Positions 4,535 to 7,502 of a stretch of DNA of 64,000 bases are shown piece by piece. The notes under the pieces were generated by a model, which searched no databases, was not told the origin of the DNA, and saw only the letters and a list, made by a program, of their open reading frames with translations. Location: positions 1 to 64,000 of the forward strand of contig FNPA01000006.1 of the NCBI GenBank assembly GCA_900107185.1, given 5' to 3'. This DNA comes from Ruminococcaceae bacterium YAD3003 (lineage in GTDB: Bacteria > Bacillota > Clostridia > Saccharofermentanales > Saccharofermentanaceae). A program made the translations under genes and the position numbers. Each line of letters begins with the position of its first letter. The first letter of the stretch is position 1.

Positions 4535-5914
4535 ATGAGCGGAAAATACACTGACAGAAGATCTATGCTCGAAGGAAGCCTGTGGAATAAGATCCTCGGG
4601 TTTGCTTTTCCTTTGGCTCTAACAGGCATTCTGCAGCAGTTGTTCAATGCGGCTGATATTGCGGTCGTAGGTAACTATGCCGGCGAGATGGGCGAGGCTG
4701 CCATGGCTGCGGTCGGTGCAAATACGCCGATCATATCCTTGGTTGTCAATTCGTTTTTGGGAATCTCACTTGGTACCAACGTCGTTATAGCGAATGCAAT
4801 AGGTAAGAAGGATGAGGCGACTGTAAAAAAGGCTGTTCATACTTCCATTATTGTTGCGTTGATCTGCGGTATTGTCGTAACTGTATTCGCGGAACTCTTA
4901 TCCAGACCTATCCTGGTAAGACAGAACATTTCCAAAGAATCCATTGAACTCGCGATCCTTTATTTCAGGATCTATATGTCAGGTCTTCCGGTAATCCTGC
5001 TCTATAACTTCGAGGCGGCAATTTTCAGAGGAATAGGTAATACCAAAATCCCTTTCATTGCTCTTGTTATCTCAGGCATCGTTAATGTCGGACTGAACAT
5101 TTTGTTCGTTGTTGTTTTTCACCGCACGGTAGACGGTGTAGCTGCGGCTACAGTAATTTCGAATTTCCTGAGCAGCATCATATTGCTGGTGTTCCTAAGG
5201 TACTCAAAGACACCTGCCAAATTCAGTTTCAAAAACCTTAAGGTTGACCGTACTGTACTGGTGAAAATCCTAAAGATCGGAATTCCCGCAGGACTCCAGG
5301 CAATAGTTTTCTCTTCGGCCAATATTATCATCCAGGCAGCTATAAACAGACTGGGAACACTTGTTGCGGCAGCATCTTCTGCAGCATTTAATATTGAGAT
5401 ATTCTCATATTACGTATTGAACAGCTTCGGCCAGGCATGCACTACTGTCACGGGTCAGAATTTCGGCGCGCGAAAGATAGACAGATGCCGCAGCTCGTTA
5501 AGACTCTGTCTTTTGGAAGGCATTGTCGTTGAGGGCTTGATGGTCTTATTCCTATTAGTCTTTGGTAAGAACCTGATCGCAATCTTCAGACCTGATAATC
5601 CCGAACTGGTCGAGATAGGTTATATCCGTGTTATGTTTATCACCATCGCTCATCTGTTTTCTCTGTTCTACGATGTAATGAGCGGCTACATGAGAGGTTA
5701 CGGAATCTCTTTGTCACCTGCTATAGTTACCATGATCTGCATTTGCGGAACGAGAATACTGTGGATCAAGACCGTGTTTGAGATGTATCTGTCATTTGAG
5801 AGCATCATGATCGTATATCCGATAAGCCTTGGTCTGAACGCTCTGGCGATATTTGTCCTTTTGCTCATAAAAAGACCTGCCAAAAGGTACGAGATTGGCA
5901 CAAAAGCCGCCTGA
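4535..5914 (+). CDS. MATE family multidrug/Na+ (H+) antiporter
   Basis: The 459-residue integral membrane protein has about 12 transmembrane segments in two homologous MatE halves (about 15-180 and 240-400). Family features are visible: PLALTGILQQLFNAADIAVVG near the start, GIGNTKIPF in the first half and FGQACTTVTGQNFGA in the second. It should export cationic organic compounds using an ion gradient; the substrate is unknown. It follows the hydrolase after 40 bp. No strong ribosome site precedes this ATG, which is the only reasonable start. The gene is followed by the TPP riboswitch of the next transcription unit. Confidence 0.9.
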   Translation: MSGKYTDRRSMLEGSLWNKILGFAFPLALTGILQQLFNAADIAVVGNYAGEMGEAAMAAVGANTPIISLVVNSFLGISLGTNVVIANAIGKKDEATVKKAVHTSIIVALICGIVVTVFAELLSRPILVRQNISKESIELAILYFRIYMSGLPVILLYNFEAAIFRGIGNTKIPFIALVISGIVNVGLNILFVVVFHRTVDGVAAATVISNFLSSIILLVFLRYSKTPAKFSFKNLKVDRTVLVKILKIGIPAGLQAIVFSSANIIIQAAINRLGTLVAAASSAAFNIEIFSYYVLNSFGQACTTVTGQNFGARKIDRCRSSLRLCLLEGIVVEGLMVLFLLVFGKNLIAIFRPDNPELVEIGYIRVMFITIAHLFSLFYDVMSGYMRGYGISLSPAIVTMICICGTRILWIKTVFEMYLSFESIMIVYPISLGLNALAIFVLLLIKRPAKRYEIGTKAA

Positions 5915-5964
5915 TTACTCCTTGTAATTCCAATATTCATATAGTATAGTTTTCGCGATATATG

Positions 5965-6050
5965 GAAAACGGGGAGCTGGTAACGGCTGAGAGGGATTAA
6001 TAAATCCGACCCGCAGAACCTGACGGATAATGCCGGCGTAGGGAACATAT
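5965..6050 (+). promoter_or_regulatory. TPP riboswitch (THI element)
   Basis: The conserved THI-box segments are present in order: ACGGGGAGCT, GGCTGAGAGG, GACCCGCAGAACCTGA, then GATAATGCCGGCGTAGGGA. Thiamine pyrophosphate binding is expected to switch off the downstream ThiT-aquaporin gene, whose ATG is about 80 bp further on. No terminator hairpin with a T-run is evident between aptamer and gene, so control may act by hiding the GACGGAGGTG ribosome site. A possible -10 (TATAGT) lies near 5944. Confidence 0.92.
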
Positions 6051-6128
6051 AGTATTTTTATATCCTCTTGTCATTGACAGATCCAAAGGTTTTAAGTTTC
6101 CCGGTTTCCAATTGACGGAGGTGTTTTT

Positions 6129-7502
6129 ATGTCAAAACAATCTACTCAGGCTAACCGCGAGAATATCGTGAAGATATCCACGGGTGGTGTATGCCTTGCA
6201 CTGGCATTCGTTCTCTCACAGCTTAAACTTTTCGAGATGCCGATGGGTGGTTCAGTTACTCCTGCATCGACATTGCCGATAATCGTTTACGGCGTTGCGT
6301 TCGGACCTGTGTGGGGATTTATCTTAGCATTCATCTTCTCATTGCTTCAGCTCATCGGCGGCTGGCTCGTAACTCCTTTCCAGGTTATCCTCGATTACAC
6401 AATCGGATATACTGCTCTGGGCTTTGCCGGATTTGCTGCTCTTAAGTCTGAGAACAGACTCAAGATCCATGGTGCGCTCAACAGATTCAGAGGCACATCA
6501 ATCATTAAGATCCTGCTGTTCTCCGTAGTTGCATATGTTGTAAGATGGCTCGGCTCAGTTGCATCCGGCGTTATCTTCTACGCTGAATATGCTGCTGAAG
6601 CAGGATACGACAGCGCGCTCGTATATTCCATGGTTTATAACGGATCATTCCTTTTGGCTGATCTTGCAATCCTCGCAGTCGTTCTCGTTATCCTTTACAT
6701 GGTTATTCCTTCAACCAAGAAGGCAGATGATTCACTCGTTGCTGTCAGAAAGTACACAGCAGAATTCATCGGAACATTCGTACTCGTATTTGTAGGTTGT
6801 GGTACTGCAATGGCAGTAGGCTGCGATTCAGCAAACGGCGGCGGATATATTCTCACTGCTCTTGCTTTCGGTCTTGTTATCGTCGCAATGGCTTACTCAA
6901 TCGGAAACGTATCAGGATGCCACATCAATCCTGCAGTATCTATCGCAATGCTTATCTCAGGTAAGCTCTCTGTTGCGGATTTCTGGGGTTATGTTGTATT
7001 CCAGGTTCTTGGTGCAATTTCAGGCGCAGGACTGCTCCAGTATCTGTTCTCTCTGTCAGGCAAAGCAGATATGACTGGCGTATTCGATGAAGAAGCAGGT
7101 GAGATGGTTTCATGGGGTCTCGGTGCAAACGGACTCGCTGGTGTTAACGGCAGCATCCCTGCAGGCCTCATCATCGAGATCGTTCTCACATTCATCTTTG
7201 TTTTAGCAATCCTTGGTGTTACAGACAGCAAGTTTAAGCATGGCTCATTCGGCGGTGTCGTAATCGGTCTTGCACTTGTTCTCGTACACATCCTCGGAAT
7301 CAGCTTCACAGGAACATCAGTTAACCCTGCACGTTCTATCGGACCTGCTCTCTTTGCAGGCGGTGCAGCTCTGGCTAACCTCTGGGTATTCATTGTTGCT
7401 CCTCTCGTAGGCGGCGCTCTCGCAGCTCTCGTTTACAAGGCAATCGCTGGTGCTAAGTCAGATGATTCAGACGAGAAGAAAGAAGCTTCAGAAGAAAAAT
7501 AA
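6129..7502 (+). CDS. ThiT thiamine-uptake S component fused to an AqpZ-type aquaporin
   Basis: One continuous 457-codon frame encodes two membrane domains. Residues about 10-195 match ThiT, the ECF thiamine-binding subunit (PFQVILDYTIGY at 83-94; VYSMVYNGSF at 165-174). Residues about 208-440 are a complete aquaporin with both NPA motifs (N267-P-A and N399-P-A-R). Aligned by eye to E. coli AqpZ, the selectivity filter reads F247, H387, T396, R402, as in water-specific channels. The tail is charged (DDSDEKKEASEEK). The ThiT part should bind thiamine and pair with EcfA/EcfT encoded elsewhere. The TPP riboswitch upstream supports the thiamine role; the fused water channel is unexplained. The ribosome site is GGAGGTG. 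Confidence 0.9.
   Translation: MSKQSTQANRENIVKISTGGVCLALAFVLSQLKLFEMPMGGSVTPASTLPIIVYGVAFGPVWGFILAFIFSLLQLIGGWLVTPFQVILDYTIGYTALGFAGFAALKSENRLKIHGALNRFRGTSIIKILLFSVVAYVVRWLGSVASGVIFYAEYAAEAGYDSALVYSMVYNGSFLLADLAILAVVLVILYMVIPSTKKADDSLVAVRKYTAEFIGTFVLVFVGCGTAMAVGCDSANGGGYILTALAFGLVIVAMAYSIGNVSGCHINPAVSIAMLISGKLSVADFWGYVVFQVLGAISGAGLLQYLFSLSGKADMTGVFDEEAGEMVSWGLGANGLAGVNGSIPAGLIIEIVLTFIFVLAILGVTDSKFKHGSFGGVVIGLALVLVHILGISFTGTSVNPARSIGPALFAGGAALANLWVFIVAPLVGGALAALVYKAIAGAKSDDSDEKKEASEEK

Follow-up and report, generated by a model that had tools for sequence, protein, structure and literature searches.

Can a vitamin-binding membrane subunit and a water channel have become a single functional protein, and what would such a pair be for? 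The question is raised by a gene in a 64,000-nucleotide stretch of contig FNPA01000006.1 of Ruminococcaceae bacterium YAD3003, hereafter called the window. An earlier note on this DNA described there a fusion of ThiT, the thiamine-binding S-component of ECF transporters, with an AqpZ-type aquaporin, downstream of a TPP riboswitch. We analysed the gene, its relatives and its genetic environment by comparative genomics.

One reading frame carries both domains

The fusion gene (6129..7502, + strand) starts with an ATG codon and codes for 457 residues with no internal stop. Two Pfam domains are found in this one frame, as the earlier note had proposed: Thia_YuaJ (PF09515) at residues 18-196 (E 9.8e-35; 120.7 bits for a cut-off of 25.8) and MIP at residues 204-436 (E 7.5e-50; 170.2 bits for a cut-off of 25). 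The ThiT half, a putative thiamine S-component, extends from 6129 to 6710 (+ strand), as delimited by the Pfam domain, a profile match to ThiT and the helices of a structural model. The AqpZ-type channel half (6753..7439, + strand; residues about 209-437) was defined by the Pfam domain, both NPA motifs and residues F247, H387, T396 and R402. It is followed by a variable, charged C-terminal tail that runs to the stop codon (7440..7502, + strand; 42% mean identity, median dN/dS 0.55).

The junction lies at residues 194-208 (6708-6752, + strand), with about 10 residues between the domains, close to the 6720-6760 region where it had first been placed. In an AlphaFold2 model of the fused chain, computed as a single chain from an alignment of 103 sequences, both domains are well modelled (mean pLDDT 88.5, pTM 0.75), and a short coil at residues 193-200 separates the two helical parts. 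The linker (6711..6752, + strand; residues 195-208) has the same length in 25 of the 26 copies, that of the window being one residue longer, and residues 194-208 have a mean identity of 58% across copies. Its start resembles the ends of the free ThiT proteins of the genus and its end the starts of the free AqpZ proteins. Thus, the join looks like a ThiT C-terminal tail run into an AqpZ N-terminus. As both of these ends are cytoplasmic in the parent families, topology would be no obstacle to the fusion.

Internal initiation of translation, which would yield two proteins, is not supported. The ATG of M191 is the only start codon near the junction that is common to all 26 copies, and neither it nor any other in-frame start codon between residues 184 and 216 is preceded by a Shine-Dalgarno motif in any copy (six 4-base motifs searched). 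With this absence and the constant length of the linker in 25 of 26 copies, the fusion is probably made as one polypeptide. This is the simplest reading, yet the chain might be cleaved after its synthesis. We favour, on a judgement that is evenly balanced, the view that the fusion is a bifunctional membrane protein of single origin and vertical inheritance, in which a water channel, probably a tetramer, carries a thiamine S-component.

The fusion is confined to one genus in the genomes searched

A search of 115 genomes of the family detected 26 full-length fused copies in 25 of the 85 genomes of the window's genus. Among the matches listed, there was no fusion in the 30 family genomes of four other genera, nor in 73 further genomes of the order (188 order genomes searched in all), nor outside the genus in samples of 391 genomes of the class and 398 of the phylum. 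These last two samples overlap and contain some genomes of the genus, and their E-value limits (1e-45 for the class, 1e-60 for the phylum) are so strict that more distant fusions may have escaped detection. Identity to the window's copy is 78-85% for the other 25. A scan of named genome contigs collected 77 relatives, 24 of which are fused (L032-L055); the animals sampled include goat, sheep, water buffalo, red deer and horse. One fused copy is found in a record without a MAG label (Ruminococcaceae bacterium AB4001, JHXJ01000003.1). On these genomes, the predicted ThiT-aquaporin pair is kept together in at least 25 species of a gut-bacterial group.

The earlier note had reckoned with an error of sequencing or assembly at the junction and with a fusion present in no other genome. 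The fusion has come through on both counts, with no assembly error and 25 genomes of the genus that have it. That it might be an assembly or sequencing artefact is therefore hardly conceivable, given 26 copies in 25 genomes, the 78-85% identity of the others and the copy in a record that carries no MAG label; a decaying read-through product is just as hard to credit in view of the strong purifying selection described below. We rejected an artefact or a chance fusion, as the 26 full-length copies are independent.

Genome G019, with 7% contamination, has two different fused copies (L023 and L052), which may represent two strains rather than a duplication.

Among the matches listed outside the genus, the long ThiT frames, five of which were fetched, had N-terminal extensions. 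Four of these proteins, of 413-526 residues and from other clostridial families, are encoded at L197 (2131-3711), L198 (1194-2435), L199 (2361-3605) and L200 (1424-2881). They are likewise long chains, but the added part is N-terminal and is not an aquaporin by Pfam; no Pfam family scored over its cut-off in these extensions, which are hydrophobic by eye. The extension of L197 looks tandemly repeated, also by eye.

The fusion sits at the ancestral thiT locus

The phylogenetic trees were built without duplicate loci and without rows of fewer than 100 residues. The ThiT halves of all 26 copies form one clade (98/97), which is nested within the unfused ThiT proteins of the genus; the closest of these are in genomes G051 and then G043. 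The fused aquaporin halves also form one clade, both in a smaller tree (88/88) and in a larger one (91/80). In the larger tree, whose drawn root is the midpoint, the fused channels lie outside a clade (100/99) of 47 free AqpZ proteins, drawn not only from the genus but also from a second genus of the family and from further families of the class; another 16 free AqpZ rows form a third group. A derivation of the channel half from the genus's own free AqpZ is not supported, as the fused form is outside this 47-member clade. In the smaller tree, a long-branched row from a neighbouring genus grouped with the fused channels, and it moved elsewhere once more rows were added.

The fusion occupies the ancestral thiT locus, as the same alpha/beta-hydrolase gene adjoins unfused thiT. 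This gene was found upstream of thiT at all 20 unfused loci of the genus that were fetched and at 21 of the 24 fused loci from named contigs, with the remaining three truncated. The distant unfused loci L070 and L071 from the contig scan (44% identical) do not have it. A gene for a MATE exporter (4535-5914 of the window) is located between the alpha/beta-hydrolase gene and the fusion. A MATE gene precedes thiT at 24/24 named fused loci, although at three of them it is incomplete and in L040 it is about 2 kb away, and it is absent from all the unfused thiT loci of the genus that were fetched. Thus, the lineage with the fusion has changed on both flanks of thiT. We looked for an intermediate with adjacent, unfused thiT and aqpZ genes, and no aquaporin match was found at 20 unfused thiT loci of 5-9 kb each, including that of the nearest relative (G051, L110).

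In three genomes, G079, G018 and G083, the free AqpZ groups with those of the fused genomes, yet no fused match was detected. G083 has an unfused ThiT, and G079 and G018 have no ThiT match. The fusion may have been lost in some genomes; at the completeness of these three (89% for G079, 77% for G018 and 84% for G083), assembly gaps would look alike.

A TPP riboswitch precedes the fusion

The proposed TPP riboswitch was recovered by the Rfam family RF00059, the only match over the gathering threshold in the 64-kb window (aptamer at 5960..6062, + strand; 58.6 bits for a threshold of 54.3). A TPP aptamer precedes all 26 fused copies, 25 of them above the threshold and one just under it, at 52.9 bits. 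The segment between the aptamer and the start codon (6063..6128, + strand) is a candidate translational switch. It contains a CCTC box (CCTCTTGTCA, 6064-6073) and a Shine-Dalgarno sequence (GACGGAGG, 6114-6121), of which GGAGG ends 7 bases ahead of the ATG. A CCTC after the aptamer and a GGAGG before the ATG are found in 26/26 fused leaders. The predicted energy of the duplex between them is -9.5 kcal/mol or better in 17 of the 26 leaders and between -5.1 and -8.4 in the other 9; the leader of G076, one of these 9, was scored on an upstream CCTC, with CCTCTTGTC present further on. Folded by itself, the leader of the window did no better than shuffled sequences, and the pairing is apparent only when leaders are compared. 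The potential CCTC/Shine-Dalgarno pairing fits a switch in which the TPP-bound form hides the ribosome-binding site, so that TPP would probably turn translation off.

A TPP aptamer above the gathering threshold is also present at 9 of the 16 unfused thiT loci scanned (20 fetched). Seven unfused thiT loci of the genus (L114-L120), six of them from one clade, have none above this threshold. In the window's genome, a second TPP riboswitch lies upstream of thiW-thiM-thiE-thiD-thiC (L174, 4565-8737).

The earlier note had argued from the riboswitch that water-channel expression would follow thiamine status. Each of the 25 fused genomes, though, gave one further match, a separate free AqpZ, so that a link between thiamine and channel expression can apply at most to the fused copy.

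The channel half is under the same selection as free AqpZ

The best PDB relatives of the channel half by sequence are AqpZ proteins. Its score against the NCBIfam equivalog NF003838 (aquaporin Z) is 204.1 bits, short of the cut-off of 256, and we therefore call it AqpZ-type rather than an AqpZ equivalog. The filter was located by aligning the protein with AqpZ, whose selectivity filter consists of F, H, T and R. Both NPA motifs and F247, H387, T396 and R402 are present in the window's protein, as the earlier note had seen, and are kept in 26/26 fused copies. The shared gene and riboswitch might suggest that the channel passes another small solute tied to thiamine use, such as ammonia, hydrogen peroxide or a thiamine breakdown product. 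We consider this very unlikely, since the filter is of the narrow water type, is identical in all 26 copies and does not distinguish the fused channels from free AqpZ.

Selection was estimated by the Nei-Gojobori method (NG86), using only pairs with dS between 0.02 and 1.5. With dS near 1, the dN/dS values are approximate. The fused channel and free AqpZ have almost equal medians, 0.116 from 296 pairs and 0.115 from 195 pairs; the median is lower in the ThiT half, at 0.09 from 319 pairs, and much higher in the C-terminal tail, at 0.546 from 127 pairs. Mean pairwise identity is 86.8% in the ThiT half, 82.1% in the fused channel and 83.6% in free AqpZ, and it falls to 58.0% in the linker and 41.8% in the tail. 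Both forms were compared in 21 of the 25 genomes, the free AqpZ of four fused genomes being absent from the set. In this like-for-like comparison, the fused channel is clearly held as tightly as free AqpZ, and it is not a decaying passenger. The phrase ‘accidental but retained’, by which the fusion had first been characterized as one possibility, thus understates the case, as purifying selection acts on the aquaporin half just as it does on its free counterpart. The earlier note had also raised a structural or osmotic role in ECF transport, which is a possibility.

These data also bear on the possibility that the two halves have independent functions. An extra aquaporin would then have landed in frame behind thiT and been kept as a useful second channel, perhaps with an altered outer loop, and the join would add only TPP control. 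Selection on the aquaporin half just like that on free AqpZ is in keeping with this, as are the resemblance of the linker to two native ends run together and the small number of near-fixed differences, merely 8, between the 26 fused and 21 free forms, none of which is a filter residue. Nevertheless, the length of the linker is near constant while its sequence varies, and none of the fused genomes lacks a free AqpZ of its own. We view such independence of the halves as a tentative alternative to a bifunctional protein.

A structural difference from free AqpZ concerns loop C, which in the fused channels is about a dozen residues longer than in 61 of 63 free rows. The AlphaFold2 model has two short strands in it, at residues 318-320 and 325-328. 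The exceptions are the free AqpZ of G016 (L027), with a long loop C although the ThiT of this genome is unfused, and that of G536, in which the extension is partial. The longer loop would suit a role of the channel half as a helper of the S-component. The channel could soften or hydrate the membrane or fix the orientation of ThiT, alter the rate of toppling or docking, and so favour ThiT over other S-components for the shared module. Competition of S-components for one module in group II transporters, described in PMC4820897 and PMC12075633, would give such help a use. The long loop C of the free AqpZ of G016, and in part that of G536, speaks against it, and we regard a helper role as unlikely.

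The ThiT half is the only clear ThiT, and an ECF module is predicted

The profile of the ThiT half matched ThiT of PDB entry 3rlb (E 8e-28); a plain single-sequence search of this half against the PDB found nothing. All 50 rows listed in a fold comparison with Foldseek are aquaporins, so that it is silent on the ThiT half. Against the NCBIfam equivalog TIGR02357 (ECF_ThiT_YuaJ) its score is narrowly short (101.8 versus 108.45 bits), which makes it a family member, not an equivalog by that model. That both halves fall short of their equivalog cut-offs counts against a bifunctional protein.

The site comparison was based on the residues that we take to form the thiamine site of Lactococcus lactis ThiT. 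At the aligned positions, D89, Y90, S143 and N171 are present in 26/26 copies, Y151 in 21 (F in 5) and Y166 in 25 (F in 1). Several differ from the L. lactis protein, with D89 in place of Glu, S143 of His and Y151 of Trp. These differences also count against the bifunctional reading, although D89 is common to all 50 ThiT proteins aligned. All 26 copies have a G20xxxA24 motif, with a small residue at both positions aligned with what we presume to be the AxxxA motif of ThiT, the first being Gly and not Ala. For FolT, docking on EcfT has been ascribed to an AxxxA motif in helix 1 (PMC4820897).

A Pfam search for ThiT in the 25 fused genomes gave 26 strong matches (114-126 bits), all of them in the fused frames, and 15 weak ones (19.7-25.5 bits), one of which, in G008, is just at the cut-off. 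Thus, the fusion is the only clear ThiT of these genomes. The window's genome has a predicted ECF module to which the fusion could deliver thiamine. Two EcfT-family matches were found, one of which follows a 599-residue frame with two ABC domains and has, by eye, rpoA and rplQ beside it. That frame (L175, 8595-10394) appears to combine EcfA and EcfA' in one chain.

Discussion

The ThiT-family S-component and the AqpZ-type channel form a pairing for which we found no description: no ThiT-aquaporin or other ECF-aquaporin fusion appeared in the titles and abstract openings listed in searches of open literature. Each half has well-known relatives. By profile and Pfam the N-terminal half belongs to the same family as ThiT of L. 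lactis (PDB 3rlb), a group II ECF protein, and an ECF module is encoded in the window's genome; the fusion differs in its whole C-terminal aquaporin and in some residues of the site. An upstream TPP riboswitch is a further shared feature, as PMC8862789 reports one for L. lactis thiT. The C-terminal half has the MIP fold, the two NPA motifs and the F-H-T-R filter in common with Escherichia coli AqpZ (PDB 1rc2, 8uy6), from which it is set apart by the ThiT that precedes it in the chain and by the TPP riboswitch. Its loop C is also longer than that of the free AqpZ of the same genomes.

Two other natural fusions are comparable. An aquaglyceroporin with a C-terminal arsenate reductase (Wu, Song and Beitz 2010, reviewed in PMC9775063) likewise joins a channel of the aquaporin family to another functional domain. 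That partner is a soluble enzyme that makes the substrate of the channel, whereas ThiT is a vitamin-binding membrane subunit, with no evident substrate shared with the channel. In that review, channel-enzyme fusions are called rare. In a second case, a receptor with an S-component fold is fused to an NRAMP transporter (PMC11109136), so that this fold is again joined to another integral membrane transporter. There, it is a C-terminal 5TMR receptor domain, more prevalent in archaea; here, a ThiT-family protein is N-terminal and its partner is a channel.

If the fusion is bifunctional, as we favour, its N-terminal half would bind thiamine outside the cell and, through the usual cycle of toppling, pass it to EcfA-EcfA'/EcfT. 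The C-terminal half would be a water-selective AqpZ-type channel, which should form a tetramer like other aquaporins, and four ThiT domains would then be attached to one channel platform, each by a short linker on the cytoplasmic side. Thiamine binding, water conduction, tetramerization, the switching mechanism and the role of the platform are all inferred. In the current view of ECF transport, S-components rotate in the membrane and detach from the motor module, and the toppling step would here have to happen on a tether. A model in which the S-component topples and docks on EcfT is presented in PMC4820897, and release of the S-component from the module during ATP turnover is described for CbrT (PMC12075633). 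Such a cycle looks awkward for a domain that is tied to a tetramer by about 10 residues. A stronger version of the bifunctional reading holds that the aquaporin tetramer is a working platform for four thiamine S-components, in which the tethered S-component still imports its substrate or the channel speeds the process; this is possible, and we think it doubtful.

The pair of a channel and a vitamin binder adds to the natural fusions of membrane channels. With an S-component apparently tied to a normally tetrameric type of channel in the genomes of 25 species, the toppling and release model would become testable with a natural tether. If the tetramer does act as a platform, either there would be a bound on the freedom to topple and detach that ECF S-components require, or the channel half would speed the process. 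The fusion would then represent a new kind of ECF transporter, with the substrate binder built into a channel and water permeability tied to thiamine status.
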